Part shown: positions 1-64,000 of the stretch, piece by piece
Layout of the letters: every line of letters begins with the position of its first letter
Numbering within the stretch: position 1 is the first letter of the stretch
Source: Hysterangium stoloniferum
Lineage: Eukaryota; Basidiomycota; Agaricomycetes; Hysterangiales; Hysterangiaceae
NCBI GenBank assembly: GCA_015178975.1
Contig: WHVD01000155.1
Span: 62,001 to 126,000 of the forward strand
Length of the DNA stretch: 64,000 bases
Reading direction: 5' to 3'
The notes under the pieces: generated by a model
What the model was told of the DNA's origin: nothing
Database searches by the model: none
The model's input: the letters and a program-made list of their open reading frames with translations, nothing else
Position numbers and translations under genes: made by a program

Positions 1-2090
1 TAAATCAAATGATTGTCTCGCGACTACTCGAAATGAAATAATTTAAAATGACAATTGGTGGAATGAACTCCAGTCAACTCAAATGGGAGCAATAGGGGAA
101 ATGTCGGGATAGCGAGTAAAATAAATTGCCGTGGCGTGTAGTGTGACGCTAGCGACTGAAACTTTGAAATACGACACAAACGAGATTTCTCGTGGCTTGG
201 CTTCTGCACGCGGCGGATCGTCGTGGGTATTTTTCAGCTCTTAATTTATATGTGATTCCACCTGACATGACCACAAGCTACCTTTCTCTAATCAAAGCTC
301 ACGACATGTGAAGAAGTCTTGGTGTCTTGATCGTGGTGTTGTCCATTGGTTTGGGACCGCCTTCTTTGAGCCACCCTAGTATTAAATTGAAATTGTTATC
401 GCTAGTAAATGCGATGTGATTTCAGCGACGTGTAGTCCTCGGAATATATTTAACACCAGTCTAGAGAACCTCGCAACGACCATTACCCGTGACTTTCACT
501 TTTAATTGTATTAAATTATGTAGCTTCATACAACTCTCAAGTCCGCGTTCTGTTTGAAATTATTGTCATTTATGAATAGGACGTCAGTCTAGCCCCGGGT
601 GGTCCCCGCAAGTGTATTCGAATCACTTATGGCATCAACGCGTACAAGCTGCAGACCTCAACGCAATGGTGAAAAGTGACTGTATACGCTCTTATATTTC
701 CTCGACCTATGGCAGCTTTATTGTCAAGTTTTCAAAGGAAGAAAATGAGTTTAAGGAAATCGCGCAACGCATTGCCTCGCACAGTGTGAAGGCCCTTGGT
801 TTTAGGATCATGGATCTTGTTGATTGACCACTGGCGAAGATATGGTGAGCCTGAACGAGACATGCAGCAAAGTGGCGACGGGGGAGGACTTTTCAGACGT
901 TCAGTAATATCGTATTTAAAACATATCTTGTTCATGATTCGAATGTTAGTCTAGGTACGGCTGGTGGCCCCAAATGGATTCGACACATGGATGGGTACAA
1001 CTGCAGAGCTCGCGGTGATAATACAAAATGGCTATATGCGTTCTTACATTGGCCCAAATCATATAGCTTTATAAGATCTGCAACCCCGGATGCAAAGTGA
1101 CTTGAATAAAGGGCGAGGCTATTCGGCTCCTCCTGGTTTAATTGTTATGTGTCGGCATTATCGACGAGAAATGATTAAGCAGTGTATCCAATTGATTGTG
1201 CAAGACCTTTGTCAGGGAAACCATGTTCTTCTATCACTGATATGCGGGTCTAATTCTACCGACACACGAGTGGAAGGAGTGGCAACCACGCAAAGGAAGG
1301 AATGTGCAGTGAAATCTAAATATCCAAGCGAGTTACTGGTGAATTGGTCAATGGTCGAGCCACGCATTATGTCACAATATGGAAGAAGAGAACGAGCATG
1401 GGGATGGTATCGATTCTGCGCACTGTGGTATACGCAGATTCGTGCTCGGAAGATCCAGCTATCAGTTCCAGAGTCAATGTGATTATTCGCTCACCACACA
1501 CAATGAGATCCCAATTAGGACTCGTGTGGGTGAGAATGAGACTGGTAGGACAGTTTCATGGACGGATGTAAGACGGTGCTGGAAGACAAAATATAGTGAA
1601 CGTACGTACCGTACGATGGGCCCGATGAGCGAAGAAACCACATTCAGCTGGTTGATGTGATCGGTGAGAAGCGTGCTGTCGTCGAAGAAGGTTTGCAAGG
1701 AGTGAATACGCTGATACAGTGAAAGTGATGTCCCCAACTCAATATGAAGTGTCAATGATGCTATATGCTTGTCTACATCGTCCAATAAAACCCTCAATAC
1801 AGCTCCAGCAATATCTCGAAACCATGCATCTTGGTGGATGCTATTGGGAACTTGTGCAGACCACAGTGAATATTAGAATATAACCTGGCTTGTATCTATG
1901 AGTAAACTACTGGGGATTATATATATGTCTGTGGGGAGAAGGTTCTGGAAGGGATGACAGAGATATTACTAAAGCTATGTTAAGTATGTTTCCAAGACAT
2001 TCTATAATATTCTAGGGATGTCAGGTTGATTACCAACAGATGCAACACAAGAGAAGCCATATAGGATGTCTATAATGGGAGATAGTTGTA

Positions 2091-3051
2091 AGGTAGGCGT
2101 CACTTTAGTTCAGCATCTTATGTAATCATATTACTAAGCACCAAGAGCAGCCAAATTTGTGAATCAAATTTTTGAAAAATTTATTATGAAGTCAAAAAAT
2201 GAATTGGAGGGTCACTCACTATACAGAGAGTTCTTGAATCTCTGGGTAATAATCTCTAGGATTTTCATCATTTTCATCATCTGAGTCCAAATCATGAGCA
2301 AGAGCTGGTAGAGGTTCTTCCTCAAAGTCATCAAGAAAGCCCACCAAGGTGAGAGATCCATCTTCTTCATCCACAATAAATGCTTCATCATACATCCTTT
2401 CATTGCTTTAATCTAGATTGAGAGAAACTGGTTTGTAATGGAAGTCATCATCATCTGGGACATCCTTGATTGTCACTGAGAGCTTTTTTTGTGCCTTGGA
2501 TCCAAGGTTTTTGATGTGAGATTGTGCAGCTTTAGACTTCTGAGGCATGGTAGTAGAACTGTGCAGCTGTGCTGCTTATGTAATGCAGCCTGTGATCAAG
2601 TGCACAGCTTACTGCACAAGTACATGTGCAACTATACCCTCTTTTTCTTAGGAGACTTTTTATGTAAGCAATATAGGTACATATATTTGAATTTAATACA
2701 GTTTTCTTTCCCAATTTTAGGCCCTTAAAACAAGGCTGCCCAATATATCACATGATGATTATGTAAGCAGCCAATACTGTCAACATTTTGAAAATCTCAG
2801 AATCACATGGAAATGCATTTTAAGCATTCAGAGACTCAAAAAAAAATAGTCAAAATTTGTAAGTCCTACTACTTGGCAAGGGTGAATTATTTTTCAAGTT
2901 TTAAACCTAAGAACTGGAGGAATGGATCCCAACTCCACTTCCCTGGGCTTTAATTACAGATTATCTATGTTGTGGAAGCACAGAAAGGAATGCAAGCAGG
3001 TCACTTTTTTTGCCTACATAAACAGGTGCCAAACTAAAGCAACACCTACCT
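2091..3051 (-). mobile_element. TA-flanked terminal-inverted-repeat DNA element, copy 1 (961 bp)
   Basis: The left end AGGTAGGCGTCACTTTAG and the right end (reverse complement AGGTAGGTGTTGCTTTAG) form imperfect terminal inverted repeats of about 25 bp. A TA dinucleotide flanks each side (2089-2090 and 3052-3053). Removing the element plus one TA restores 'gatagttg-ta-ggtgactttgtctg', which matches the uninterrupted sequence of other array copies (for example 24065-24090). TA duplication and these ends suggest the Tc1/mariner superfamily. The inside is too short for a transposase, so this is a non-autonomous deletion derivative. It interrupts exon 4 of gene copy U9. Confidence 0.85.
2214..2548 (-). 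pseudogene. Remnant of the N-terminal ORF of the TIR element
   Basis: Inside the inverted-repeat element a reading frame starts at 2548 with MPQKSKAAQS and contains SVTIKDVPDDDD before a stop near 2410. A second open stretch starts at the ATG at about 2396 (MYDEAFIVDEEDGSLTL) and ends at the TAG near 2214; it is strongly acidic (DLDSDDENDENPRDYYPE). The same first segment recurs in the sister element at 21771-21935. This looks like the basic-then-acidic N-terminus of a fungal transposon protein whose catalytic part has been deleted. No DDE motif remains. Family assignment rests on the TA target site, not on the protein. Confidence 0.5.
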
Positions 3052-4278
3052 TAGGTGACTTTGTCTGTTATGGTTTTGGTGGGGCAGGATGAAATGATGT
3101 CACATCACGATGCACAGGTGTAACTAGAATTCAATGTAACCTCTGATTGCCGTGAGCTCCTCTACAGATAGTTGACGAATGTGGCAGATAGCTTCCACAA
3201 TATGCACAAGGCCGATAATGCTCCAATAATTACCAAATCCTGTTAGATAACAAGTGAATTGTATAATAAATGTTGATGCAACCTCATCCAAGTTGGTGTG
3301 CAGCGGTGACTTGACTATAACATTGTACAGTGATGACCTAATTGCGGGTGACGCGTGTCTATCTAACCAATGAACGCCTCGGCAGTAAATGAAGGCCGAA
3401 GCCAAAGATAGCAAAGGTCGGGAAGTGTGACCTTTGCTACTCAGCTGCATGTGAAGTGAAGACATCCAGGAATCTTCTAAAACCCTTGTCGCTCTTCTGC
3501 GAATTTGAGGTGGATATGTGGGTCTATGACTCAGACATGATTATTTCGAGTGTATCAAGTGATGGACGCTGAGTTATCAACCTCACTAAATCAACACTGT
3601 CTTGAACTAGCCTTCCCAGTCTTGGCAGGGTGAGGTGCTTGTGTAGAAGCTTGCTAAAGGCACCCTCGTCTTCAGACAGTTGACTCATGATTTGCTTATA
3701 TATTGTCAACTTTGCCATCAGCGAGGCTTTCTTTGCACTGTGCAGGGCATTCATCCCAACCCTTTCCAAGCCAACTCCACAGTAATACCTGGGGCTAATT
3801 CAACACTTGAAGATGTCCCAAGACTCTGTGAGATCATTCCCCAGTCCTCGGCATGACTGCGATATGGACTGAGGTTGGATGTCGGATTGGTGGATACCGT
3901 AACAACAGTAGGTGGGTCATGGTACGTCATTTCTCCTTGACACTGAAATATGCCGCATGTGACACAGATCACATGGAAATAGCATTATACTTTACTCACC
4001 AACTCGTCAACCCAGACCTCTATATTGTTTCCAGACGGTTGTATGTGCTCCTCGTCATCGGGGGCCCGATAACATAAATCATGGCCGGGTTCATTACATC
4101 CCCATCGTTCTCGAAGCTTCTCCCTGAATATCTCTCTCATCCAACTCTTAATGATCTGTCATCGCTCTGAACTCCATACACCTGGGGGGGCTAAGGGTGG
4201 TAGCTCAACGCCTTCAAGGTAGGTCTGAACCATGGCCTCATCGTGGTTCCCCAGAATTGTCTCATTGACAGCAGACAT

Positions 4279-4650: not shown

Positions 4651-7600
4651 TCAATAAGAAGAAACCCAGGTCAATGATAGTCTAGTTCATGGGAAGCAAT
4701 GTGGTTTCTTCAGGCACCACTGCCACTTCAAACGGATTTTGTTGAATGGCTTAACAAGACAAACAGTAAAGTAAGACCAAAGTTTTCAGGTAGATGTTAT
4801 TGACGGACGTAGGGGTCGAACTTGGAATATCTTTGATTGTGGCGTGTCCATCAGAATTTGTATTAATAAACTGTACCCATAACTCCATGTCAGGTATACT
4901 TACTTACTCCAACCTCATTATTATCTGCCTTACTGAGTGGAATGTTTCGCCCCAGGTTCACACTCTTCATGCGTGAACATGGCTCTTCCATGCGACGATG
5001 ACAATGTAGATCCATGATTGTGACCGGTACAGCTTGACCAATCGCAGGTGGAGTTCGTCTGGTACGTACAGATTCACCATGCTGGGAATTCTTATCTTTT
5101 TCTGCTTTCTTACCGGCCCTTTTGTTGCTCGCTACTCCACTGTGCCCTTTGAGCTTGACAAAGGTGACCTGTCATCCCCTTCTGTCCCACACAATGGGCA
5201 ATCATCCCAGCTCTGAGTTTGAAGCCCCAATCCATCCTTCATTTTCTCGTTTTGAATGATTGTCATTCAGGGAATTAATGAGGTACTGTAAGTTGATACA
5301 ATTCTCCAAGTTGATCATCGGCTATTGTCATCACAATGTGGGCAGAAGATACGATGCTTGGCAGGGTAATGGACCATAATGTAATGACTCCCAGGATAGT
5401 CTTCAGTGCAGCAGGAAAAAAATAGAATACCATTCAGATCACTCCCGACGGCAATAAAACTTCTGTATCCTAGTATCAGACCGCAAGGGACAGGAATTTC
5501 CTTCAAGGACAGTGGCAAAGGCCGCACCTGGTCTTGGACCGGTTCAAGAATTCCCAACGAAGTCGTCACGGTTTGGTTCAAAAATGGTGCGGGAATAATT
5601 ATTGCCTATGCGAGATATATATCTAGTCCTACAATACATTTGATTATTAGTCGCAAAACACGAACCCTACAAATTCAAAGGTATCATTGACCAAGTTTTC
5701 ATCACGGACGCAGCACAGAGCTGCACTAAGAATAAGAAGTGATTGTATGCGCTCTGAAATTGGTTCACACGATAATCTTCAATAAAGCTCCAGCAACCTG
5801 TCGAAACCATATATTTTGGTGGATGCAACCCACGAATAGCTGAATAGGATCTTGCCAACCCAACATCGTTACTCTTCGTCTATTCTCATCACAAAGTGGG
5901 CAGAAGATATGATGCTTGCCGGGGTAATGCATCATAATGTAATGACTCCGGGGAAAGTGTTCAGTGCAGGAGAAAAAATAGAAAACCACTTGCATCACTC
6001 TTGACGACAATAAAACTTCGGTATGCTAGTACCACTCCAAAAAGGGTAGGAATTCCCTTCAAAGACAGTGGCAAAGACCGCACGTGGTCTTGGACTGGTT
6101 CAAGAATTCCTAATGAAGTCGTCACAATTCGGTTCAAGAATGGTCCGGTAATAACCATTGCCTGTGAGATATTTATATCTAGTCCTACAATATATTGAAT
6201 TGTTAGTCGCAAAAAACGAGCCCTACACATTGAAAGGTATCATCGATCCAGTTTTCGCCACGGACTCGGCGCAGAGCTGCATTAAGAATAAGAAGTGATT
6301 GTATGCGCTCTGAAATTGCTTCACACGAGAATCTTTAATACAGCTCTAACAGCATGTCGAAACAATAAACTTGGTGGATGCAACCCACGAATAGCTGAAT
6401 AGGATCTTGGTTAACTCAAGGCCGTTATTGGCTATTCTGGCGAGAATGGTTTCGTCAGCAGGATGAGGTGTGATGGCACGATGCACCGTTATAACACGAA
6501 TTCAAGTATCCTCTGATCGCAGTAACTTCTTCGCACATTTCTGACGCACGTGGTAGATGGTTCCATGAAATACACAAGCCCGCGAATGAGTAAAGTAATT
6601 GCAATCGGGCTATTATTTTATAATAGTGCCACAAAACCAGCACTAAGCACCAACTTTGATGATGTTGTATCGACATTTATCATACAAATCACCCAAAATG
6701 TATCAACGTTTGATCGTCAAGATGATCGACACCGGGGCACCATATGAAGGTAAAGCCCAAAGATTTCAGGAGCTTGGCAGTGTGATCTCTCCGCTGTCAA
6801 TAGCATAGAGTGAACACACCAGAACAGGGATAAAATAATCAACGCCTCCTGCGGAATTTCGTGGGTCTGCGAAGACGTGAGTATTTCGAGTGTATTCAGT
6901 TATTGACGCTGAGCTATCCCTACCTCATTCAATCAATGCCCTGTTGAATTAGTCTACCTAGTCTTGCCAGAGTTATTCTGGATCAGGAACCCGTCAGGCC
7001 GAGATGCTGTGAGACCATTCCCCAGTCCGCAGTATCACTGACATACGGGATGTGACGTTCGTGGATTCCCTGGCATCCCAACCATACTCGAAGGGTCATG
7101 GTAAGTTGTCTCTTCTTGGCAGTGAAGTATCCAGTTTTTCAACAGTCGTGGACCGAGAATTAAACTCAAGCCGGCTGTTGCTTGAATAATGGCCATCCAT
7201 ATTCAATTCTATCATAATCCCACCACACGATTTCTAGTTTAAACATTTTTTTATCGCCCCGATGAGGACTGTATTCCTCGTGTCCCTTTGCCATATCAAG
7301 GGGCTTGCATCTTCCGAAAGGTCTGAGAAAAGGAAGAAAGATGACTATAGTTGACCCGTCCGCTGCAATATCCAAGAGGAGTTTAGGGTAATTTTTCACG
7401 AGGTGGCTGATCGTCGAACGTGAATATATTTTGTTCTTTGTCTTGCTCAGTGAACTGTTCGCCGCGACGCCCCATGTTCATACTGTTCATCCATTGCTGT
7501 GGCGACGAACTCACTAGCATTGGTTTGATGAAATAGTCTGGAAGCCACGGAATTCTGTTCCGGGGGGTATTTTCCGCAAACCGAACACGTAATTCGAATT

Positions 7601-16091: not shown

Positions 16092-16096
16092 TAGTG

Positions 16097-17248
16097 TGTT
16101 ACAACCGTGTTGTAACCCGTGTCACAACCGTGTTGTAACCCGTGTCACAACCTGATGGTCTCCAAGAATACTACTGTCTATTGACATTCCAAGTTATTGA
16201 TCAAGTCACCATTTCAGCAACTGTTGGAACACTGATGCTGATGTATACCTTCATGGCCATCAAACCCCATTTATGCCCCTGTCAAAATATACTTGTACCA
16301 TCTGGTTATGCTTTGATATGTCCCCTTTCATTTTGATGATCTGTTTCACTCTATGTTTCACATATGCCTGTATATACTTGTAGCCTGTGGACTATTCCCT
16401 TTTCTCGTAATCCCACTCTCAGCTAAATATCGGCTTCCGATCTTATCGTAACCTTCTGGTTTCTAGTCAAGTCTATTTGTCAAATAGTGTTTCCACTCTT
16501 CCCTTAGTTAGTAGTTTCTAGATGCCGATAACTCGTATATAAGACCCACTGTAATGTAACTACTAGACAATCAGAATATCAACTTAGATACCCCTCCAAT
16601 CTCTGACTCCATTATCTATTCACAACCACCACATTCTGACTCCATCCAATTTACAATTCAACCTACTTTTACAACTTCAACCTCTAATCTCTGACTCTCA
16701 GTCTCTGACTCTCAGTCTCTGACTCTCAGTCTCCGACTCTCAGTCTCCGACTCTCAGTCTCCGACTCTCAGTCTCCAACTCTCAGTCTCCGACTCTCAGT
16801 CTCCGACTCTCAGTCTCCGACTCTCAGTCTCCAACTCTCAGTCTCCAACTCTCAGTCTCCGACTCTCAGTCTCCAACTCTCAGTCTCCAACTCTCAGTCT
16901 CCAACTCTCAGTCTCCAACTCTCAGTCTCCAACTCTCAATCTCCAACTCTCAATCTCCAACTCTCAATCTCCAACTCTCAGTCTCCAACTCTCAGTCTCC
17001 AACTCTCAATCTCCGACTCTCAGTCTCCAACTCTCAGTCTCTGACCCCTCAGCCCAACCCTTGACTTATCCTTCAGTTTCCGATTGGTAGGTTACCAAGA
17101 GGTTTACTTGACCGGACTAGTTTCTGCCTGTCCGAAATTTAAGGACACCCGACGGTAACTTGCGAGGGCACAACACATAAGCTGAAGCCAAGTCCTTCCG
17201 TTCAGTCCCCATCAGTCTACCAACATCAGTCAGTTTCTGTTCTTAACA
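16097..17248 (+). mobile_element. Solo LTR D (1152 bp) with 5-bp target duplication TAGTG
   Basis: It begins TGTTACAACC and ends TTCTTAACA, flanked by TAGTG at 16092-16096 and 17249-17253. A TATA box (GTATATAAG) is at about 16535-16543. The segment 'acataagctgaagccaagtcc' near 17175 is shared with the solo LTRs at 36930-37992 and 44457-44999, so they belong to one retrotransposon group. No internal coding region or second LTR adjoins it, so it is a solo LTR left by recombination. It is made long by the minisatellite at 16684-17045. Confidence 0.85.
16684..17045 (+). repeat. 14-bp minisatellite inside solo LTR D (about 25 units)
   Basis: Tandem units of 14 bp with consensus CCGACTCTCAGTCT. 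The third position varies between CCGACT, CCAACT and CTGACT, the pattern expected if a CpG decays to CpA or TpG. Some units also carry CAAT in place of CAGT. Confidence 0.9.
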
Positions 17249-17253
17249 TAGTG

Positions 17254-21130: not shown

Positions 21131-21182
21131 ATTGTGATCATGCCCTCCAGACTCTTCCCGGTTCTACAGCACCGACAGGCAT

Positions 21183-21247
21183 AATTACAGCTATTTCAAG
21201 AATTACGGCTATTTGAAGAATTACAGCTATTTCAAGAATTACAGCTA
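21183..21247 (+). repeat. 18-bp tandem repeat, target of the TIR element
   Basis: About three and a half units of 'aattacagctatttcaag'. The element at 21248-22076 landed in a TA of the last unit, whose remainder ('tatttcaag') continues from 22077. Confidence 0.7.
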
Positions 21248-22076
21248 AGGTAGGCATCACTTTAGTTCAGCACCTGTTTATGTAAGCAAAAAAGTGACCT
21301 ACTTGCACTTCTTTCTGTCCTTCCACAACATAGATAATCTGTAATTAAAGCCCAGGGAAGTGGAGTTGGGATCTATTCCTCCAGTTCTCAGGTTTAAAAC
21401 TTGAAAAATAATTCACCCTTGCCAAGTAGTAGGACTTACAAATTTTAACTTTTTTTTTGAGTCTCTGAATGCTTAAAAACTTGTTTCCATGTGATTCCGA
21501 GATTTTCAAAATTTTGCAAGTGTCAGTATTGGCCGCTTACATAATCATCACGTGATATATTGGGCAGCCTTGTTTTAAGGGCCTAGAATTGGGAAAGAAA
21601 ACTGTATTAAATTCAAATATATGTACTTATCTTACTTACATAAAAATTCTCCTAAGAAAAAGAGGGTATAGCTGCACATGTACTTGTGCAGTAAGCTGTG
21701 CACTTGATCACAGGCCACACATTACATAAGCAGCACAGTGGCAAATGCGTGGTTGCACAGTTCTACTACCATGCCTCAGAAGTCTAAAGCTGCACAATCT
21801 CGCATCAAAAACCTTGGATCCAAGGCACAACAAAAGCCCTCAGTGACAATCAAGGATGTCCCAGATGAAAAGATACCATGGCCATCGTACATTACCTCCA
21901 ATCATGCTTGCACAAGTATGGCAAGCTCAAATTAATATGCCTGTACCATTATAGTGACTCCAATTCATTTTTTGACTTCATAATAAATTTTTCAAAAATT
22001 TGATTCGCAAATTTGGCCGCTCTTGGCGCTTAGTAATATGATTACATCAGGTGCTGAATTAAAGTGACGCCTACCT
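21248..22076 (+). mobile_element. TA-flanked terminal-inverted-repeat DNA element, copy 2 (829 bp)
   Basis: Sister of the element at 2091-3051, in the opposite orientation. Ends are AGGTAGGCATCACTTTAG and, at the right, the reverse complement AGGTAGGCGTCACTTTAA. TA flanks at 21246-21247 and 22077-22078 give the target duplication. Large stretches match copy 1. The acidic ORF segment of copy 1 is missing here, so the two are independent internal-deletion derivatives. Confidence 0.85.
21771..21935 (+). pseudogene. Remnant N-terminal ORF of TIR element copy 2
   Basis: Frame starting MPQKSKAAQSRIKNLGSKAQ and continuing SVTIKDVPDEKIPWPSYI, stopping after 54 codons. It is lysine-rich at the start and matches the frame at 2548-2411 in copy 1. 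No catalytic residues remain. Likely the beginning of a transposon-encoded protein. Confidence 0.5.
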
Positions 22077-35274: not shown

Positions 35275-35279
35275 AGCGG

Positions 35280-36760: not shown

Positions 36761-36765
36761 AGCGG

Positions 36766-36924: not shown

Positions 36925-36929
36925 TGGTC

Positions 36930-37992: not shown

Positions 37993-37997
37993 TGGTC

Positions 37998-38761
37998 CCA
38001 CAAAGTCGACTCCAATTGCCTCCCATGGTTGTGAGGGCACCTCCAATGAACGAAGATGTCCCTGTGGCTTCTGAGTATCTGATTTCGACGTCACACACAC
38101 TGCAAGACCTGCAAAACAACTCAACATCCTTGGTTAAAGACGGCCACCATACGTTAGATCGTAGGTATGTGGCAGTTTTCCTTGCCCCTAAGTGTGCCAG
38201 GATCGAGTGAGCGTGTGAGATAATTATTTCCCACACCCATCGATTTCCTACCATAATATCCGGGATACACAGTAAGTTGACCTTCTCTAACTTCAGAAAC
38301 AAGAGGCCCTCCTGTAATGTAAACCCCTTATACTCCAAGGGTGCTGCCCATATCTTCGCGAAGAAGTCATCCGATCCATACTGTTGTTGAAGTGCATCCG
38401 GGATGTGGATGCCTGGGTGACCCTCTGAGATTATCCTTGCTAGCGGAAACTCAGGACGTGTGTCTGTCTGAATCCCCGGTAACTCGCCCTCCATTGCCAA
38501 TTGTGAGGTGTATTCTCTGTCATCCTGACGACTATTGTTGCCTGACTGATCAGGCCCTTCTTGCACACTAGAGGCTGCACCCCATTCTGTATCTGCATTG
38601 GCCACCCCTTTTCGTGGTTGTCCCGTATGCCTCTTGCTCTGAGTCTTCAACCCTGCAAGAGTTGCATATGATGGGTGTGAGCATGTGGCCAGCCTGCTGG
38701 ACTGTCTGGTTGCATCTGTTAACACCGCTGCTGCTAACCCTGTATACAGTGGTGTCAACAT
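37998..38761 (-). pseudogene. pol: Gypsy integrase N-terminal zinc-binding part
   Basis: The minus strand reads a linker and then the HHCC zinc-binding module (HAHSILAHLGARKTATYLRS, WWPSLTKDVELFCRSCSVC). A frameshift follows just after the CSVC. The next frame gives KSDTQKPQGHLRSLEVP and GVDFVGP, containing the first catalytic Asp, and is cut by solo LTR B. It lies downstream of RNase H, as expected in Ty3/Gypsy pol. Confidence 0.8.
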
Positions 38762-38832
38762 GCTGTTGCGGCAGCCTCATTGTGGCCTGTAAGGTACTCC
38801 TCTCTCCTCCTCGTCCACCTCAGGGGTCTCAC

Positions 38833-41361
38833 TTACATATTCTGTTTCCACCCGAACGGTTCCAAGTGGTTCATCGCTGTAAATGTGGGACAGCGCTCAG
38901 CAAACGTATTCACCTGGCCAGGGATGTACTGGATCTCGAAATCGAATTCATTGAGCAGGTCCAGCCACCTTGTCTGCCTTGGGGACAAACTTCGCTGTGT
39001 AAGTATATATTCTATGCCCTTATGGTCGGTACAAATCCGAAATTTTACCCCCAACAGCTGTGGCCGAAACCGTTTCAATGATTCCACAATGGCTAAGAGC
39101 TCCTGTTCATGCACAGGATAGTTCTGTTGAGCCGAGTTGAATTTCCCGGACCAAAAGGACACCACAGCCACTTTTTGAAAGTCATCCCCTTGGCTGAGGA
39201 TGCCACTCGCTCCTGTTAAGGAAGCATCAGTTACCAAATTAATAGTGGAATGGCCTGGTGAGTAATCTAATGCAATGCGATACTTGTCACGATGAGACTG
39301 AACAATCCGCTTAACTTCTTCGAAGGGCCGTTGCTCAGTTGCTCCCCACCTCCATGGCCTGTTTACCCCTGTCTGATTAGCCAGGATGGCCATCAGGATT
39401 CTTACCCCTTCACAGTTGTTCGCAAGGTATCCTACTGCCCCCAAAAACCCAGCCAACAGTAACTTGTTCGTCGGAATTTTCCAGTTCGCGACTGAGTCCA
39501 CCTTATGGGGGTCCATTTTTATCCCTTTATCATTGACCACATGTCCTAGCACTCGCAATTCAGGAGCAAATAAATGCATTTTGTCGACAGCCAGGTATAG
39601 CTTCTCTTGACGGAGCACCTTAAACACAGTACATAAATGCTTCACATGATCGCCAATGGAATCTGAATATACAACTATATCATCCAGATAGACATCCATG
39701 AAAATGCCAATGTAAGGAGCAAAGAGGTGGTTCATCAACATCTGGTATGTGGACAGCCCATTGCAATCGCCAATCTGTAATGTTAAGCTCTCCATAGTGC
39801 CATCTGGAGAGGTAAACAATGTCTGATGGACATGCTCTGGCACCACTCGAATCTGCTCGTATGCATCCTTTCCATCTATTAGACTCCAATACTTATGCTG
39901 CACAATGTTCCTTAGAATGGCTTCAATATCCGGCAAGGGTGTAGCCAGCTTATACGTGTTAGCATTCTGCTCACGTTTATCCACTACCGTGCGAATCCGC
40001 AGCTTTCCATCAGCTTTTGGAGGTTTAGGAATGATGAGCATAGGACATGTGTTCGTACCCGTGGCTACCCGCCATCTCCCATTCCTCAGGTATGCTGTTT
40101 TCTTTTCCTGCCATAGAGCCCTCATTGCTTCTGGACACTTAGAAGGCCGCCATGAATAGATTTTACCCTCATCGATTATTGGAATGGTATGATTCACTGC
40201 CCGTAGTGGAGGCAGCCCTGTCAGTGCAGTGTCTGGGTCTAAGTCCACTGCTTCAGCTCGCAATTTAGCCTTTAAACTGTCAAGCTCATCCTCGAAAACT
40301 TCAGCAACGGAGGACCGCAGTGTCTCGATGGTGTCTCCTTCCATTGGTAGTGGCTGGCTAGACCCAATGTTAACTCTTGTAGGATTCAAGCCTAGCATCA
40401 CTCTATGTTGAAAAATAAATGGGGTCCCTAAAATCAAATCATAGGAATCGAGATTGGCAACATCAAAATGACGTGAACAATTTATGTTCTGGTATACAAA
40501 CTGAGCAGTCGCCGAATAATTGATTTTCAATCTCGACCCATGAACAGCCAATTGCACAGTGAGTGGTTTGAGCAGTGGATTCTTAGTAACTCCTAGCTGA
40601 TCGACCAATGTCGTGGACATAAAATCTGCGAGTGACCCACTATCCATTAGGGCTTTCACAGGTTGTCCATTTATGAATGCTTCAATGATTACTGGTTTAG
40701 GCAGCCACCGAGTAAAATCCTTGGGCTGCATTGAAGTATGCTCGACTGTCTCAATACCTCCATTTTTTAATTGACTCCTTTTAGGTCCTAATGTTTTCCC
40801 CCTGGTGACATGGGCAGCATTTGCGAAAACAATGGGTTCCGACCACTCCTCCTGGGATACTGCCCGAGTCAATATATCAGGTACGGTCCACCCCTCATGT
40901 TGTAAATGGTCGGTCGTCACAGTATATCTTTTCCATAATTCACGATTGTGAATCTCATATAACCCTGCAGTAAAGGAAACTCGAAATCGCTGCCGCTCCA
41001 CTCCATTTACATCGTTAAAAACACTTGTCTTATAGTAGACTCGGAAATGGAGATCCAGAAGATTGCACATGGCCCCTTGACAATACCTTCGAAACGCTGG
41101 CATATCTTCAGAAAAACCAGGTATGTGCTCCTCGTAGATGGCCTCTATTTTATCATCCATGCTCTCATTCAGCCTGAACACCAACCATGGCATAAACAGA
41201 GGTATGTCCGTGCGGGTCTCGTCCCATATCCGAAGTCCCAATTCTTTTGTATGTACCCTAAACCAGGCTTCAGGATTACTTCCCTCCTGCAGTGCTTCTT
41301 CAGGTGGAAAGTACTCCTTCAGGGCTTCGAGAAGATACTGTGCTGAACTATTTCCGTCCAT
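38833..41361 (-). CDS. pol: Gypsy pol: protease, reverse transcriptase, RNase H (842 codons)
   Basis: The longest open frame in the window. An aspartic protease site is at residues 240-243 (DSGS in VKALMDSGSLADF), with the partner motif DLILGTPF at about 308-315. Reverse transcriptase spans roughly 430-625, with the YLDD active site at 558-561 and an earlier catalytic Asp in LIDGKDAYEQI (about 494-504). RNase H spans about 695-815 with TDAS (711-714), the HEQE-type Glu (752-754) and TDHKG (778-782). A 1-nt loss near 38898 destroys the usual NTVADALSR-like end: the other frame continues ALSHIYSDEPLGT. The product would act in the particle to copy element RNA into DNA. The open frame is intact, but the element as a whole is dead. 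Confidence 0.9.
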   Translation of the reverse strand: MDGNSSAQYLLEALKEYFPPEEALQEGSNPEAWFRVHTKELGLRIWDETRTDIPLFMPWLVFRLNESMDDKIEAIYEEHIPGFSEDMPAFRRYCQGAMCNLLDLHFRVYYKTSVFNDVNGVERQRFRVSFTAGLYEIHNRELWKRYTVTTDHLQHEGWTVPDILTRAVSQEEWSEPIVFANAAHVTRGKTLGPKRSQLKNGGIETVEHTSMQPKDFTRWLPKPVIIEAFINGQPVKALMDSGSLADFMSTTLVDQLGVTKNPLLKPLTVQLAVHGSRLKINYSATAQFVYQNINCSRHFDVANLDSYDLILGTPFIFQHRVMLGLNPTRVNIGSSQPLPMEGDTIETLRSSVAEVFEDELDSLKAKLRAEAVDLDPDTALTGLPPLRAVNHTIPIIDEGKIYSWRPSKCPEAMRALWQEKKTAYLRNGRWRVATGTNTCPMLIIPKPPKADGKLRIRTVVDKREQNANTYKLATPLPDIEAILRNIVQHKYWSLIDGKDAYEQIRVVPEHVHQTLFTSPDGTMESLTLQIGDCNGLSTYQMLMNHLFAPYIGIFMDVYLDDIVVYSDSIGDHVKHLCTVFKVLRQEKLYLAVDKMHLFAPELRVLGHVVNDKGIKMDPHKVDSVANWKIPTNKLLLAGFLGAVGYLANNCEGVRILMAILANQTGVNRPWRWGATEQRPFEEVKRIVQSHRDKYRIALDYSPGHSTINLVTDASLTGASGILSQGDDFQKVAVVSFWSGKFNSAQQNYPVHEQELLAIVESLKRFRPQLLGVKFRICTDHKGIEYILTQRSLSPRQTRWLDLLNEFDFEIQYIPGQVNTFAERCPTFTAMNHLEPFGWKQNM

Positions 41362-41406
41362 TCCCGGTGGGTCCTCATCCTCTATTGGCTCCCATTGGGT
41401 AGTCCC

Positions 41407-42008
41407 TCATGCCATTGGGATAGCATTGCTAACTACTTGCGCAATTTCCCAGTCACCACTGAACAGGGCTTGTTTCGTAATCGCCATATATAAGTGGGGT
41501 TGTAAAAGATCCACAATTTCATACACCCAATGTGTACCATCGAACGAGACCTGAAATTGTTCTGTGTGTCGCATTCCCGCTGCCATAGACTCAAGTTGCG
41601 AAAAATGTGTACAACAATGCTGTTGTATAATCCTCGCCACTGTAACATGGTCTGCACAGTCATCGGTGAGCTTTTTCCCTAACCATTCAGGGTCATTCGC
41701 GATGCTTTGAGCAACAGTAAATCTGGTTCCCGACATATAATTTTGCTAATTTGAAGAGGATCCCCAGGTATGACGTCGTCTCTCACCCTGAAGTCTTCGA
41801 CTGAATAGGACACCTCAAACCGTGTCAGTGGATTTTGAGCCTCAGCTATGGCAGTATCAGGCCCAAAATATTCAGTGATCGATCTCTGCAGCCAGGTGGC
41901 ATAAATTTGATTGTGTAAGTTATTGAACTCCTGTTGTGTCTCTTCATCGTTAAGCACGAATGATGCCATATTTAGTTGTAACTCTGCCCGTTCCTTCTTT
42001 CCTTCCAA
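41407..42008 (-). pseudogene. Gypsy gag-pol junction region, frameshifted
   Basis: Two overlapping open stretches on the minus strand: 42008-41679 (MEGKKERAELQLNMASFVLN) and 41736-41407 (VARIIQQHCCTHFSQLESMA). They lie between the gag zinc knuckle and the protease frame, and were probably one polyprotein segment before a frameshift near 41700. No domain is recognised. Confidence 0.5.
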
Positions 42009-42089
42009 ATTGATAAGTCGTTTTATTCAGACAGATCCAGCAGACACCATTACCCCTTTTTTTGGTGCCGACATGAACTTCCTGCAGGG

Positions 42090-44101
42090 ACAGATGCAGG
42101 ATTTGTGACCCTCATTCTTGCATGAAAAACACCGCCCCTCTGCTCAAAGTTGATTCATCTCACTCCGACTTAATTTAGGACGTGGTTTGAGAGTGGTACC
42201 TCTTGGTCCAGATGGCTTGGAGTGGTAATTTTTCACCCCTTGGGTATCCATCTTCTGCCCTGTCTGACTCACTAAGTCTTTCTTTGGGGCCCATATCCGA
42301 GGTGATCTGGATGCTGTGTTTTCCCTCCTCCCTTTTTCTGCCAGCTGAAATTCTTGTGCAGCCTCAAACCAGGTAGCAGTTTTGATAAGTTTCTTCCATG
42401 ATGTATTGTCAGGATTGAGCCCATTATCTAACCATTTTTCTTTAATATAGTCATATGCCCCATCCCAGACAATTTGCTTGAGTTGTCGCTCGTGGATATC
42501 AGGAAACCTTCTAGCGTTATTTTCGACATCTCGCACAAAATCACAAAAACACTTTCTACCCTGCCTGGCAGATGTTAGTTGCTTTTGCATATGCACCTTA
42601 TAATCGGCAGGAAAGCAATAATTGAATAGGCCATCATAGACAGCCTTCAAGGTCCACTTCCGTTTGCTCAATGCTACATGCTTCATATAGAAGGAGCTTG
42701 CCTTTCCATCAAGGAAGTATATGATCAATTTCACCACCCACTTGCAATCTAACCCATTGATCTCTGCCCAGAGATCATAGGCATATATAAATGCTTCGAG
42801 AACGTCAAGTTCAGCAGTGCCTGTATAGATCACAGCTTGCTTAGTCTTAACTCCAGCAAGCAGCTTTTTGGTTCGCTTCGCTTCAGCCTTGGACCGTTTG
42901 CGTTTGACCTGTCTTATGCGCTGAGAGCTAGGTGAGTGTTTCTTTCTATGCTTCCTTCTGGTTTCAGAGTGACTTAGGGGAGCACCTTCCGATCCTGATC
43001 CAGACTCAGGGGAGTCGGTGCTACATTCGCTGGCTGATGAGTCTGACTCAGTTGATGTGCTATCTGATGACTCATCGTCTCCATCACTAGACGATGAGCT
43101 GCTTGAATGGGATGGTGGTCCAAATTTCCCTTGCCCTCCTACTGCAAAGTACCCGCCCTCCGGCACTTGTGAAGGCTCCCGTACATAACGGCTAGTTACT
43201 TTCTTGGGCTTCTGCTCTTTCTGCGGCTGACTATTCTGCGTTTCGCTTCCTTTGTGCAGGTTCTTCGAGGGACGCTCGCCTTCCATTCTTTCCTTCCCTT
43301 TGCTGGTGTGCATTGCCAACATCTGTTTAGATCCATCTGCATTTGCAGGCTCTAACCTAGAAGATGAGGGTTCATTTGGTACAGGTGCGTTTTCCTCTAC
43401 CTCAATGACAATGGCACTAAGATTCATGGATGACTAGGAAAATATTCCAGAGCTTTCCAGCCCTCTAATCCCTCCAGTTCTCAGCTTGTAGGGTAACATC
43501 CATGTTTCTGGGAGCGGCCCTAACTGATCGTCATCAGATTCCGAACAATCGGACCATTTAAACTTAGCACCCTGGTGGTGCTCGAGTTGCCGTCTCTTTG
43601 TACAATCCTTCCTTCCTTGTATCGCCACTGCTCTCTCCTTCAAACCACTCTGGAAAAAAGAGTGCTTCTGGGCGAATGAGAGGTTTCCCCTTTTGGAACC
43701 TCCTTCGGAAGGTCTTTCGAGGTGCCACCAGCTCTTCAGGGTATACCAACCCGTACTGACCCGTCCAGTTTTGGAGGGCGACCTGAGTTCTGAGATACTT
43801 GCTAGGACAGGGAAATGTTGTGTTGACCTTTCCACTCTCACTAGATTCATTCGAGGCTTCACTAATAGGAACTTGATTGTTTCCACTGGAAGTGGCCATC
43901 GAGGAATCCGAGGCAATTTGCGTGTAGATTGGTTTGGGGCCTGTGGCATTCAAAGGTGAAGAGGTAATACTCACCGTTTCAGTATCGAAACTATTCAAAT
44001 CATCACTAGCCACCCGTCGTCAAGCAATTCTCTTGCTCCACACGGGAATTGCACTTCAAACAGTGCCTTGACGAGTGATAGGTTGATAAATTTCGGACAT
44101 T
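42090..44101 (-). pseudogene. gag: Gypsy gag (capsid and zinc knuckle), broken
   Basis: The gag start is probably the ATG near 44101 (MSEIYQPITRQGTV), followed by a stop and frameshifts into 44013-43564 and then 43949-43434. The main open frame, 43427-42144 (427 codons), has a Ser/Asp-rich linker, a basic stretch (KRKRSKAEAKRTKK) and a capsid-like region (LIIYFLDGKASSFYMKHVAL, CDFVRDVENNARRFPDI). A TGA after SRSEMNQL (about 42142) separates it from the zinc knuckle CFSCKNEGHKSCIC (C-x2-C-x4-H-x4-C, 42131-42090). Gag would package the element RNA. At least two frameshifts and one or two stops are visible. Confidence 0.75.
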
Positions 44102-45050
44102 GTGGCGAGAATATAGTTGTGTAGATGTATTGCGTGCACGCGTTTTTTTTACCTAGTGGGTGATCAGTCTGCTAGTATAGAATATAAAAGAATATGAAGT
44201 TGGAGACAAAGTACTCAAAAAGTGTAAGGTTCAGCTTTAAAGATAGCATAATCCTTCAGTGGAGCTCTTTACAAAGCGGAGAGTAGGAATAGGCTCCAAT
44301 TCGAAAAAGACCCCCCTAACTAATGGGGGGTTCACCTATTTAAGCTAACCCTCCTAAGCTACGTTCCCTGACAACTTCTTATAAGTCTGAAACCCTCTAA
44401 TGATCGAAAACTTCCAGTGTCTTCTCTTTACCCCTTACCATCTAAGACTAGGGCGGTGTTACGACCCGTTCCTGGATGTTTCAATATCTGACTTCCGATC
44501 TCCGACTATGGAACATCATAGTTACCGTATCATCCGCATTCTTCTCTTGTTCCGCATTTGGTAATTTGTCCGTTGACAAGTATTCACTCGTTTGTTTGTT
44601 ATATTCCCGTTTCGAAATATTGTCTCCCTAATATGTCTTATTGTATTTCCATTTTAAGAACACTTCCATTTCCGTCTTATTATGGTCTTAGTTTGTAGTA
44701 CAATAACGAGTAGACTTATATTAGTTTCCGCGAATTTGTACTTTACCTTAGATCTGATATTGACTTAGTTTCTTATTCCTCCTCCCGTCTTTCTGTACAC
44801 TCAATATTCGGAACTCTTCGGAACTTTGAATATCCGTATCTTCCATCGTAAGCCTTACTTCCGAAATTAAGACTTTGAGTGTTTGCATAGAGGCGCAGCA
44901 CATAAGCTGAAGCCAACGTCCTGACCCTATCCACTAGTTTCCGACTTCCTGGTGACTTTCCAATAGTTCCGGAATAAGTTCCCGACATGGCACTTAACAG
45001 GCGGTTATCTGCCCGATTCATTGTCCACCACCATGTCTGCTCCCGTTACA
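44102..45050 (-). repeat. Gypsy 5' LTR and leader, split by solo LTR A
   Basis: Reading on the minus strand, the LTR starts TGTAACGGGAGC at 45050 and runs to 45000. It resumes at 44456 after the inserted solo LTR and ends somewhere before the gag ATG at 44101. I cannot place its 3' edge or a primer-binding site with confidence because the partner LTR is missing. Confidence 0.5.
44457..44999 (+). mobile_element. Solo LTR A (543 bp) with target duplication GGCGG
   Basis: Starts TGTTACGACC and ends CACTTAACA, flanked by GGCGG at 44452-44456 and 45000-45004. 'cacataagctgaagccaacgtcc' near 44900 matches solo LTRs B and D, but it lacks their repeat expansions, which explains its shorter length. 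It landed in the 5' LTR of the chromovirus. Confidence 0.85.
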
Positions 45051-45637: not shown

Positions 45638-48600
45638 TCAATGAGAAGAAACCCGGGTCAATGATAGTCTGGTCAGGTTAATGGTCACATGAAATGGCTT
45701 GAATTTTGTAGAATGTCTGAACAAGACAAAGAGTAAGGTAAGACCAGGGTTCTCAGTAGATTTTATTGTGGTACGTAAGGCTCGAACTTGGAGTATCTTC
45801 GATTGTGGCGTGTCCATCAGAATTTGTATTAATAAACTGAACACATAATCCCATGTCAGGTAATACTTGCTTACACCTAGCTTCATTATTATCTGTCTTT
45901 CCGAGCGGAATGTTTCGCCCTAGGCTCATACTCTTGATGCGTGGACATGGCACTTCAGCGCGACGATGACAACGTAGATCCATGATTGCGACCCACTCAG
46001 CTTGACCTATCGCAGGCAGAATTCGTCTGGTACGTCCAGATTCACTAAGTTAGGAATGCTAATTTGTACCCTTTTTCTGGTTTCTCCCCCTTTGGGACTG
46101 GCCATGACAGTCCCTCTTCTGTCCCACACGATGGGCGTTCATCTCAGCTTTGAGTTTGATCCCCCAATCCATCCTTTATCTTCTCGGTTTGAATGATGGT
46201 CATTCAGGGAATTAATCCGGTGCTGTGAGTTGATACGAATTTTCAACTTGATCATCGGCTATTGTCGTCGCAAAGTGGGCAGAAGATACGATGCTTGCCG
46301 GGGTAATGCATCTAATGTAAAGACTCCGGGGATAGTCTTCAGTGTAGCAGGAAAAATAGAATACCACGTGCATCACTCTCGACGACAAGAAAACTTCGGT
46401 ATGCCAGTCCGAAAAGGACAGGAACTCCCTTCAAAGACAGTGGTAAAGGCCGCACGTGGTCTTGCACTGGTTCAAGGATTCCTAATGAAGTCATCCCGAT
46501 TCGGTTCAAGAATGGTCCGGGAATAACCATTGCCTGTGAGATATATATATCTAGTGCTACAATATATTGAATTATTAGTCGCAAAACACGAGCCCTACAC
46601 ATTGAAAGGTATCATCGATCCAGTTTTCGTCATGGACTCCGCACAGAGCTGCATTAAGAATAGGAAGTGATTGTATGCGCTCTGAAATTGCTTCACACGA
46701 TAATCTTTAATACAGCGCCAGCAACATGTCGAAACCATAAACTTGGTGGATGCAACCCACGAACAGCTGCATAGGAACTTGGTTAACTCAAGGTCGTTAT
46801 TGGCTATTCTGGCGACAATGGTTTCGTCAGCAGGATGAGGTGTGATGGCGCGATGCACCGTTATAACACGAATTTAAGTAGCTTCTGATCGCAGTGACTT
46901 CTTCTACGCATTGCTGACGCACGTGGTAGATGGTTTCCATGAAATACACAAGCCCGCCAATGGGTAAAGTAATTGCAATCGGGTTATTATTTATAATAGT
47001 GCCGCCAAACCACACTAAACTCTAACTTTGATGATGATGTATCGACATTTATCATACAAATCGCCCAAAATGTATCAACATTTGATCGTCAAGATGATCG
47101 ACACTGGGACACCATATGAAGGTAAAACCCAAAGATGTCAGGACCTTGGCAGTGTGATCTCTCCGCTGTATATAGAGTGAACACCACCAAAACAGGGATA
47201 AAATAATCGACGCTCAGGAATTTCGTGGGTCTACGAAGACGTGAGTATTTCGAGTGTATTCACGTATTGACGCTGAGCTATCCCTACCTCATTCAATCAA
47301 TGGTCTGTTGAATTAGTCTGCCAAGTCTTGCCAGAGTTTAATTCTGGGTCAGGAACCCGTCAAGCCGGGGTACTGTGAGACCGTTGCCCAGTCCGCAGTA
47401 TGACTGAGCGGGGTGACACAGGATGTGCCGTTCGTGGACTCCCTGGCATCCCAACCATACTCGAAGGGTCATGGTAAGTTGTCTCTCCTTGGCAGTGAAA
47501 CATCCAGTTTGTGAACAGTCGTGCATCGAGAATTAAACTCCAGCCGGCTGTTGCTTGAATAATGGCCTTCCGTATTCAATTCTATCATAATCCCACCACA
47601 CGATTTCTAGTTTAAACAATTTTTTATCCGCCCCAATGAGGACTGTATTCCTCGTGTTCCCTTGCCATATCAAGGGGCTTACATCTTCCAAAAGGTCTGA
47701 GAAAGGCAAGAAAGATGACTATAGTTGACGCGTCCGCGGCAATATCCAAGAGGGGTTCAGGACAATTTTTCACGAGGTGGCTGACCGTCGAAGATGAATA
47801 TATTTTGTTCTCTGTCTTGCTCAGTGAACTGTTCGCCGCGACGCCCCAGGCTCATACTATTCATCCATTGCTGTAGCTGTTAGATGTGACGATGGTAAGG
47901 TAGATTAAGGATTGTGAGGCACTTTACGTCCTTGCGAATGTCAAAGCTGCCATCTAGCTGTGTCTCCTTGGCGAGCACCTTTATGGCGACGAACTCACTA
48001 GCATCGTTTTGATGAAGCAGTGTGGAAGCCACGTAGTTATGTTCCGGGGGGTATTTTCCGCAAAACGAAGACGTAATTCGAATTCGTCAACGGTGTCGAC
48101 ACACCAAAGGTGTAGAGACTAACGCATAGGAAGGAAAGGGGACGACAACCAACGTTCAAGAGGCCCACGGATCTAGTCGAATAATCCTTTGATATTAGAT
48201 TGAATCAAATGAATTTTCGCTACTACTCGCAATGACATAATTCAAACATGACAATTGGTGCAGTCAACTGACATGGAAGCAGCAGGGGAACTGTCGGGAT
48301 GGGGAGTAAAATAAATCGTCATGGCGTGTAGTTTGACGCTAACCACTGAAACATTGAAACAAACCATAAACCAGAAAATCTCGGGGGATGACTGCTCCAT
48401 GTGGCGAGTCGTGGGTATTCTTCAGCTCTTAGTTGATATGGGAGTCCGCCAGACATGACCACGAACTACCTTTCTCTTATACAAGATAAACACTCACGAC
48501 ATGTGAAGAAATGTCGGTGTCTTGATCATGGTGTTGTCCATTGGTTTGGCACCGGCTTCCTGTTCTCCCAAACAAAGGACACGAGAAGAATGGTGGGACC

Positions 48601-57031: not shown

Positions 57032-60000
57032 TTAATGAGAAGAAACCCGGGTCAATGATAGTCTAGTCAGGTGAATGGTCACATGAAACGGGTTGAATTT
57101 TCTGAAGAAGACAAAGAGTGAGGTAAGACCAGAATTCTCAGGGTAGATTTTATTGAGGTACGTAAGGCTCGAACTTGGAGTATCTCCGATTGTGGCGTGT
57201 CCATCAGAATTTGTATTAATAAACTGCATACATAACCACATGTCAGGTAATACTTGCTTACACCTAGCCGTATTTTATCTGTCTTGCCGAGCGGAATGTT
57301 TCCCCCCAGGCTCATATTCTTGATGCGTGGACATGGCTCTTCAGCGCGACGATGACAACGTAGATCCGTGATTGCGACCCACTCAGCTTGGTCTATCACA
57401 GGCAGAGTTCGTCTGGTAAGTCCATATTCACGAAGTTGGGAATGCTTATATGTCCCCTTTTTCTAGTTTCTCCCCTCCCCCTTTGGGACTTGCCATGACA
57501 GTCCCTCTTCTGTCCCACGCGATGGGCGTTCATCCCAGCTTTGAGTTTGATGCCCCAATCCATCCTTTATTTTCTCGTTTCCTACAATACATTTTATTAT
57601 TAGTCACAAAACACGAACCCTACCAATTCAAAGGTATCATCGACCCAGTTTTCGTCACGGACGCAGCACAGAGCTGCACTAAGAATAAGAAGTGATTGTA
57701 TGCGCTCTGAAATTGCTTCACACGATAATCTTCAATACAGCTCCAGCAAACTGTCGAAACCATATATCTTGGTGGATGCAACCCACGAATAGCTGAATAG
57801 GATCTTGCTAACCCAACATCGTTACTGTTCGACTATTCTCATCACAAAGTGGGCAGAATATATGATGCTTGCCGGGGTAATGCATCATAATGTAATGACT
57901 CCGGGAAAGTGTTCAGTGCAGGAGAAAAAATAGAAAACCACTTGCAGCAGTCTTGACGACAATAAAACTTCGGTATGCTAGTACCACTCCAAAAAGGGTA
58001 GGAATTCCCTTCAAAGACAGTGGGAAAGGCCGCACGTGGTCTTGGACTGGTTCAAGAATTCCTTATGAAGTCGTCACGATTCGGTTCAAGAATGGTCCGG
58101 GAATAACCATTGCCTGTGATATATATATATCTAGTCCTACAATATATTGAATTATTAGTCGTAAAACGTGAGCCCTACACATTGAAAGGTATCATCGATC
58201 CAGTTTTCGTCACGCACTCCGCACAGAGCTGCATTAAGATTAAGAAGTGATTGTATGCGCTCTGAAATTGCTTCCCACGATAATCTTTAACACAGCTCCA
58301 GCAACATGTCGAAACCATAAACTTGGTGGATGCAACCCACGAATAGCTGAATAGGATCTTGGTTAACTCAACGTCGTTATTGGCTATTCTGGCGACAATG
58401 GTTTCGTAAGCAGGATGAGGTGTGATGTTTGATCGTCAAGATGATTGGCACCGGGACACCATATGAAGGTACAACCCAAAGATGTCAGGACCTTGGTAGT
58501 GTGATCTCTCCGCTGTATATAGAGTGAACACCACCAGAACAGGGATACAATAATCGACGCTCCCTCAGGAATTCCGTGGGTCTACGAAGACGTGAGTATT
58601 TGGAGTGTATTCAATTATTGACGCTAAGCTATCCCTACATCATTCAATCAATGCTCTGTTGCCAAGTCTTGCCAGAGTTTAATTCTGGGTCAGGAACGCG
58701 TCAAGCCGGGGTGGTGTGAGACCATTCCCCAGTCCGCAGTATGACTGAGATACGAGGTGACACAGGATGTGCCGTTCGTGGACCCCCTGGCATCCCAACC
58801 TTACTCGAAGGGTCATGGTAAGTTGTCTCTCCTTGGCAGCGAAACATCCGGTTTGTCAACAGTCGTGCATCGAGAATTAAACTCAAGCCCGCTGTTGCTT
58901 GAATAATGGCCTTCCTATTCAATTCTATCATAATCCCACCACACGATTTCTAGTTTAAACAAATCTTTATCCCCCCCAATGAGGACTGTATTCCTCGTGT
59001 GCCCTTGCCATATCAAGGGGCTTACATCTTCCAAAAGGTCTGAGAAAAGCAACAAAGATTATTATAGTTGACGTGTCCGCGGCAATATCCAAGAGGGACA
59101 ATTTTTCACGAGGTGGCTGACCGTCGAACGTGAATATATTTTGTTCTCTGTCTTGCTCAGTGAACTGTTCGCCGCGACGCCCCAGGCTCATACTATTCAT
59201 CCATTGCTGTAGCTATTAGATGTGACGATGGCAAGGTAGATTAATCATTGTGAAGCACTGTACGTCCTTGCGAATGTCAAAGCTGACATCTATCTGTGTC
59301 TCCTTGGTGAGCACCTTCATGGCGACAAACTCACTAGCATTGTTTTGATGAAACGGTCTGGAAGCCACGTAATTATGTTCCGGGGGGTATTTTCCGGAAA
59401 ACGAAGACGTAATTTTAATTCGTCAACGTTGCCGACACCAAAGGTGTAGAGACTAACGCATAGGAAGGAAAGGGGACGACAACTAACGTTCCAGAGACCC
59501 ACGGATCTAGTCGAATAGTCCTTTAATCTTAGATTGAATGAAATGAAATTTTCGCTACTACTCGCAATGACATAATTCAAATATGACAATTGGTGACATG
59601 AACTCCAGTCAACTGACATTGAAGCAGCAGGGGAACTGTCGGGATGGGGAGTAAAGTAAATTGTTGTGGCGTGTAGTTTGACGCTAACGACTGAAACATT
59701 GAAACAGACCATAAACCAGAAATTCTCGGGGAATGACTGCTCCACGCGGCGAGTCGTTGGTATTCTTCAGCTCTTAGTTGATGTGGGATTCCGCCTGACA
59801 TGACCACGAGCTACCTGTCTCTTATACACGGTGAAAGCTCACGACATGTGAAGAAATTTAGGTGTCTTGATCATGGTCTTTTCCATTGGTTCGGCTTCCT
59901 GTTCTCTCAAAGAAAGGACACGAGAAGAATGGTGGGACCGCCTGCTTTGAGATGCCGTAGTGGTATTCGATTGACATTGTTACGGCTAGTATATGCAATG

Positions 60001-63149: not shown

Positions 63150-63342
63150 TTGGCTTTGCTTACACAGGATTCACAGCTGCCTTCATAACCAAAATCCCTT
63201 CGCCTTCCTTGAACTATTTGGGCTCCAGTAAACTTAGTTACCTTGCTACTTTCTTACGCCTGCCGCTGAAGGCTCACACAGCATTTAATAATAGTTTAGA
63301 CAATTGTCACCCCATAATATAGTATTTGGACATTATTGAGCA
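63150..63342 (-). promoter_or_regulatory. Spacer upstream of U0
   Basis: Aligns with the promoter-side half of the other spacers. The TATA-proximal block is shortened. No gene seen. Confidence 0.35.
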
Positions 63343-64000
63343 TCAGAGTTGAAAGCAAGCCGGCCTTTCATTCATGGTGTGGCATTGCCACGGATAATAT
63401 AAATGCAGGTCAGAGATATGCTTTCCGGCTGCTAATTTCAAGTTAGCGTTCGTTGTCAACCTCAAACCTTTTCTGGCGGGAGTGCGCGCTGCCTGTTTAA
63501 TTTTATCAACTTTCAACGAGTTAATGGTAAGCAACGTGATTTCTTCCTTCACCCATGCCATATCAATCGGCTTGACTTTTGTGCAACGTCTGAACAAGAT
63601 AAAGAGTGATGTAAGGTCAAAGTTCTCATTGTAGATTTTATTGAGGTACATAAGAGTCTGGCTTGGAATTATTTTGATATATGGCGTGTCCATCAGAATT
63701 TGTATTGACAAGTTGTATATATAATCGCGTGTCATGTCATACATACTTACAACTAGCTGTATTATTACCTGTATGGTCAAATGGAATTGATTCTTTGATG
63801 CTACGATGACAACGTAGGTAAATGATTGCGGGCCACCTGTAGCTTGAACTATTGTAGGGGGAGTTCTTCCAATCTGTAAAGACTCACCCTGTTCGGCTGC
63901 GCTTACACGTGCCCTTTTCTGCGATCGCACCTGCCCCTTCGTTCTGCCCACTCCACTTTGAGCTTCACAAACGTGGCCGTATCGGTCCCTCTTCTCTCCC
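63343..64000 (-). pseudogene. Terminal exon of a further upstream array copy (partial)
   Basis: A minus-strand frame open from 63951 to 63343. Its middle matches the terminal exon of the family: QILMDTPYIKIIPSQTLMYL, then FDLTSLFILFRRCTKVKPID and WVKEEITLLT, compared with GLTLLFVFFRHSTEFKLFDV and EETTLL in U5. The last 50 or so codons lie where the other copies have non-coding spacer. This shows the array continues beyond the right edge. The sequence is too diverged to say whether it is functional. Confidence 0.45.

Follow-up and report, generated by a model that had tools for sequence, protein, structure and literature searches.

A head-to-tail gene array in Hysterangium stoloniferum and the multigene family to which it belongs

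Gene array and gene structure

The window analysed here is a 64,000-nucleotide stretch of contig C63 (G000:C63:62001-126000) from the 111.1-Mb, 554-contig genome assembly of Hysterangium stoloniferum, an ectomycorrhizal basidiomycete of the Hysterangiales. It contains ten starts of one gene family, all on the minus strand (positions 63149, 62645, 56574, 51294, 45199, 31213, 25193, 19381, 10864 and 4278), with start-to-start spacing of 5.28 to 6.59 kb where the array is uninterrupted. A preliminary description, made from the sequence alone, had proposed such a head-to-tail array of about ten copies, spaced by about 5.3 to 6.6 kb, and had raised the prospect of an assembly artefact. Since aligned pieces of the copies are only about 74 to 95% identical in pairwise comparison, the array is not such an artefact. 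The repeated peptide blocks that had been singled out as distinctive are present in the copies.

Alignment of seven window copies gave five exons separated by four GT-AG introns, which in the 62645 copy measure 52, 54, 50 and 64 nt. The six exons originally counted were thus one too many, as spliced alignment also showed, and the shared terminal exon placed further 3' is not part of the gene; the coding sequence stops at a TAG, which for the 62645 copy is at 60779, and the region beyond is taken as spacer with decayed family fragments. This TAG ends the proteins of the window clade, while the annotated protein P0004 has Q at that place and 24 further residues. Introns of the family are about 50 to 64 nt long and the protein has about 550 amino acids.

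The same four intron positions were recovered, to the base, by spliced alignment to the annotated protein BU17DRAFT_82009, which is about 50% identical. Spliced models at loci L047 and L063 reproduce the annotated BU17DRAFT_82009 and BU17DRAFT_100511 letter for letter, and the exons of BU17DRAFT_82009 match contig C522 with 95 to 99% identity, overhangs included. Exactly four introns were found in 43 of 50 models spanning at least 480 amino acids (score ≥ 500, four duplicate loci excluded), the remainder being mostly disabled or interrupted. In 31 window-clade copies, which were selected for four introns and in which GT-AG was imposed by the spliced-alignment method, the commonest intron lengths are 57, 54, 50 and 64 nt and donors are near-constant. 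The TATA box noticed earlier holds for most of these: a [CT]ATAAA box lies within 110 nt upstream of the ATG in 22 of the 31 and at -50 in 17.

Three of the ten window starts are open to the normal stop. These are the copies at 62645-60779 (548 amino acids; exons 62645-62364, 62311-61953, 61898-61482, 61431-61141 and 61076-60779), 31213-29237 (559 amino acids to a TAG) and 10864-8903 (552 amino acids to a TAG, with one frameshift 3' of the stop). The copy at 51294-49371 is nearly intact, as its single frameshift, at amino acid 519, damages only the region close to the C-terminus. The other six are disabled or incomplete. An additional upstream copy at 63149-62874 is an exon-1 fragment with two frameshifts; the copy at 56574-54639 has three frameshifts and AA at the expected acceptor of intron 2; that at 25193-23553 has frameshifts and internal deletions; and that at 4278-1181 is split by an inserted repeat. 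At 19381-18677 only exons 1 and 2 were found, and the automatic model for this copy crosses unrelated sequence after exon 2. The start at 45199-45053 is truncated: after 48 to 49 codons of exon 1 the homology ends beside a stretch containing a Gypsy-type element. A frameshifted fragment without a start, comprising exons 3 to 5, lies at 13010-11896, also on the minus strand. Low-scoring spliced-alignment models (< 170, at least six introns; in or beside the Gypsy stretch or on the other strand) were treated as chance, as was the plus-strand model L018 (score 281, 11 introns).

The stretch that interrupts family homology (about 34087-45050) contains the Gypsy-type long terminal repeat retroelement, on the minus strand. 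It has a weak gag match, and its open reading frames (37964-43433) encode protease, reverse transcriptase, RNase H and an integrase zinc-binding domain; no direct repeat of > 300 bp was seen flanking it. The repeat inserted in the 4278 copy (2087-3052) matches about 30 listed places in the genome at 91 to 94%, its ends appear by eye to be inverted (AAGGTAGGYGT), and an inverted relative lies at 21242-21868. Between units, a duplicated stretch with a spacing of about 555 bp and exon-4-like remnants recurs at 5315-6475 and on the minus strand at 57580-58435 (remnants at 57801-57721 by tblastn, a second by eye), with a relative at 46252-46971. Tandem repeats of a 14-mer (about 25 copies) and of a 16-mer (9.5 copies) occupy 16694-17041 and 36342-36494, respectively. 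Scans with Rfam, for tRNAs and with PADLOC returned nothing.

Family size, relatives and dispersed copies

The coding motif for GYYCGVGLE, with at most one mismatch, has 481 matches in the genome (220 plus, 261 minus), whereas the reversed motif has none. The preliminary description, which anticipated an array larger than the window, understated the scale, as the window holds a small part of the family. Copies extend beyond both edges of the window, from about 20 to 177 kb of the 190-kb contig. The claim that both edges cut through further copies stands only in so far as copies continue on either side, as the left edge lies within spacer, 3' of the 4278 copy. Leftward of it, the first exact motif among the matches listed is C63:53659, on the plus strand. 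Matches on C63 (92.5 kb), C547 (342.5 kb) and C316 (5.1 kb) score the same or almost the same. The 31213 copy thus appears to have nearly identical counterparts on two further contigs, which suggests recent segmental duplicates or redundant haplotypes. The figure of 481 thus counts places in this assembly.

Intact genes appear to be a minority. An automatic model was open in four of 20 places (L007, L010, L028 and L063) sampled as every fifth of 100 listed exact matches on contigs C7 to C163, a sample that favours preserved copies. In three others (L032, L056 and the 51294 copy) damage or loss is confined to the C-terminal part. Perhaps a fifth of the 481 places are intact genes. Of 39 full-length models with four introns, taken from the window and other loci, 19 are intact, but these were drawn from the best matches and not at random.

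When the spliced protein of the 10864 copy was compared with 5.8 billion proteins, all 17 matches were hypothetical proteins of H. stoloniferum. Over all homology searches there were 21 distinct relatives (P0001 to P0021), every one a 'hypothetical' protein of this species and none on a contig as long as that of the window (190354 bp); genome-level searches covered the H. stoloniferum assembly alone. BU17DRAFT_82009 (571 amino acids, L047) and BU17DRAFT_100511 (570 amino acids, L063) belong to the same family and share the four introns of the window copies. These two, BU17DRAFT_96318 and other relatives have about 50% identity to the window clade and are unnamed, with no domain. In the longer relatives P0001, P0002, P0005 and P0013, pattern matching shows the N-terminal Cys/His module described below repeated four times; P0013 has such modules without the solenoid.

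As stated at the outset, no domain could be recognized. No entry of Pfam, NCBIfam or PADLOC reached its cut-off (best full-protein Pfam match E = 0.017, attributed to chance) and the best PDB sequence match had E = 0.32. The hmmscan set comprised ten single exons, 17 of the 21 database proteins (not P0011, P0014, P0016 and P0017) and nine spliced or annotated members, including P0011. Neither the database proteins nor the spliced or annotated members scanned had a Pfam match to NACHT or NB-ARC. No transposase, integrase or reverse transcriptase domain scored above cut-off in the family proteins scanned, the rva_4 'integrase core' in P0002 being at chance level (E = 0.2; 11.8 bits, where the cut-off is 26). 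A literature search found nothing naming this gene family.

A dispersed, high-copy family with transposons nearby might be cargo of a transposable element, or a domesticated part of one. Six copies that are alone on their contigs among the matches listed (L049 to L054), all with lesions, deletions or a lost start, bear on this explanation. Three of them (L049, L052 and L054) share longer flanks with the window, of at most about 1.5 kb, and additional fragments of the family, which speaks for it. The other three (L050, L051 and L053), which have about 71 to 76% DNA identity to most aligned relatives, share little with the window beyond the gene: the main homologous block runs from 0 to 77 bp 5' of the gene to about 100 to 330 bp 3' of it, with scattered fragments elsewhere. 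The six have no common end by BLAST, no systematic search having been aimed at terminal repeats or target-site duplications. As the copies also bear introns and lack a transposase or reverse transcriptase match, an origin of this kind is highly improbable.

Exchange, selection and the predicted protein

The copies are mosaics. Among 34 copies compared, the nearest relative of a copy switches from exon to exon; for the 62645 copy it is L011 in exons 1 and 2, L020 in exons 3 and 4 (tied or nearly tied) and L019 in exon 5. The nearest relative is on the same contig in only three to nine of 31 cases per segment, 'nearest' being provisional with 34 sampled of some 480. In four array copies the spacer (3' flanks) has diverged by 0.08 to 0.10, compared with 16 to 31% at silent sites and 10 to 20% at nonsynonymous sites, and in six of six pairs it is less diverged than the linked silent and even nonsynonymous sites. 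This is best explained by genes swapping pieces with copies located elsewhere.

The four array copies had also given the impression that exons outpace all their surroundings. This was rejected over 18 copies (153 pairs), with mean divergence rising from nonsynonymous sites (dN, 0.14) through introns (0.17), synonymous sites (dS, 0.21) and the 3' flank (0.24) to the 5' flank (0.36). Since both flanks exceed dS in these means, the low spacer divergence in the array is local.

Selection is patchy along the gene. A codon model for 18 intact copies gave a dN/dS ratio (omega) of 0.857 with a transition bias (kappa) of 2.15 (log-likelihood -11791.4, against -11797.7 with omega 1 and kappa 2.0); this value is preferred to the counting estimates of 0.68 to 0.74, which disregard transition bias. 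Amino acids 61-170 are constrained (omega 0.44, twice the log-likelihood difference 38.4). Of 17 segments, six are constrained at p < 0.01 each (61-110, omega 0.43; 111-143, 0.46; 144-170, 0.41; 191-225, 0.47; 263-305, 0.49; 531-548, 0.48). Two in the predicted solenoid are significantly above 1, 306-330 (2.12, p = 0.0018) and 386-420 (2.08, p = 0.0008). The other nine range from 0.62 to 1.76, only 421-455 (0.62) reaching p = 0.03. In a second clade (ten copies, nine disabled by model) omega is 0.79 over the whole gene (p = 0.0002); 306-330 and 386-420 are again the highest segments from amino acid 61 on (1.64 and 1.46), neither of them significantly, and constraint is not significant for 61-110 (0.87) or for 144-170 (0.77).

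AlphaFold predicts an ARM/HEAT-like helical solenoid C-terminal to a Cys/His module, with a helical-repeat arrangement over about residues 160-540 and a predicted local distance difference test score (pLDDT) of mostly about 80 to 95 over residues 161-530. ARM/HEAT chains are among the best fold matches (Foldseek, VIA), at 5 to 15% identity in the listed alignments. Foldseek found no PDB match at E ≤ 1e-3, and in the hmmscan set no Arm or HEAT profile came up at E ≤ 1 (one run used E ≤ 0.5). That a given protein family is missing from the fold lists carries no evidential weight. In five of 17 helices tested (242-256, 314-329, 405-423, 457-476 and 490-509) variation lies on the face opposite the hydrophobic side (p = 0.002 to 0.03, uncorrected), the pattern of a variable exposed surface on the predicted model.

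The N-terminal module is modelled as alpha-beta-beta-alpha with a largely conserved C-x4-H-x2-C-x8-H pattern, which perhaps binds zinc. Its mean pLDDT is 46, and a PDB fold search found nothing (best E = 1.8). A similar module (W.C..H..C....H..L...W) is presumably present in other Agaricomycete proteins. By hydropathy, the only measure used, six proteins have no N-terminal hydrophobic stretch (best 19-residue means 0.02 to 0.94) and no transmembrane segment, consistent with an intracellular location.

These properties bear on two further explanations. The proteins might be symbiosis effectors that reach the plant by a non-classical route, given an ectomycorrhizal fungus with diversifying segments in the family and the lineage-specific symbiosis-induced genes reported for the ectomycorrhizal guild (PMC7550596). 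A large protein of intracellular type, with nothing hydrophobic at its N-terminus, makes this quite improbable. A selfish killer or meiotic-drive family, whose copies would poison spores lacking them, multiply and decay, would likewise be species-limited (in the searches made), multicopy, clustered, fast-evolving and mosaic, with many dead copies. Such a family is decidedly unlikely here, as membrane segments are absent by hydropathy in six proteins and no driver family is known to have as many as 481 motif places in many clusters.

Interpretation and comparison with known systems

The observations are most likely those of a protein-coding multigene family, limited to one species as far as searched, that evolves under birth-and-death turnover, exchange between copies and diversifying selection at certain parts of a predicted helical scaffold. 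Tandem and dispersed duplication would produce copies, which would then swap pieces about the size of an exon with members on other contigs. Most copies would decay, those remaining intact would retain the module along with parts of the scaffold, and the fastest variation would fall on exposed helix faces.

Several results weigh against this reading. Gene-wide omega is as high as 0.857, and by counting the terminal-branch omega is equal in disabled and intact copies. Site counting (p < 0.05) found an excess of synonymous change at 51 codons and of nonsynonymous change at only two. The segments were picked after inspecting the data, and recombination is strong. The fold matches are at background level for helical repeats. 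The homology searches worked from shared five-residue words, and each scored slightly fewer than 8000 candidates, so that distant relatives may exist in other fungi.

The overall omega, the likeness of disabled and intact copies by counting and the small intact fraction, in the window and in the systematic sample, would also suit a mostly non-functional, gene-shaped repeat, in which a once-useful gene was amplified by ectopic recombination and most copies drift. The constraint on amino acids 61-170, the 19 open models (in their non-random set) and the way in which homology hugs the gene in L050, L051 and L053 argue otherwise, and this explanation is rather unlikely.

If the multigene family is functional, its members may, tentatively, be intracellular binding or recognition proteins with a solenoid surface under diversifying selection. 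Recognition may be the most economical function for the family, with possible roles in self/non-self recognition or in antiviral or anti-transposon defence. More speculatively, and with considerable doubt, it could form a variable-recognition system of fungi distinct from NLRs, in which hundreds of intracellular solenoids exchange exon pieces genome-wide, positive selection acts on the exposed binding surface and the Cys/His module serves as a conserved part for signalling or anchoring. Given 481 motif places in 111 Mb of genome, 21 annotated members and none outside one species in the searches made, the family would rank among the larger known orphan expansions in fungi.

The ARM/HEAT solenoids (importin-alpha/beta, SF3B1, CAND1, beta-catenin) would share with the family the helical-repeat arrangement predicted here, but the low identity and the lack of a profile match set the family apart from them. 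Spore killers of the wtf and Spok type are likewise multicopy and lineage-limited with many dead copies; the present family differs in having no membrane segments by hydropathy and far more copies. The fungal NLR-like (STAND) families differ in their NACHT or NB-ARC domain, not found in this family, but they too are large and variable, evolve by birth-and-death and have a diversifying repeat part. If the diversifying surface is confirmed, the family would offer a testable recognition repertoire of a non-NLR kind in a mycorrhizal fungus.

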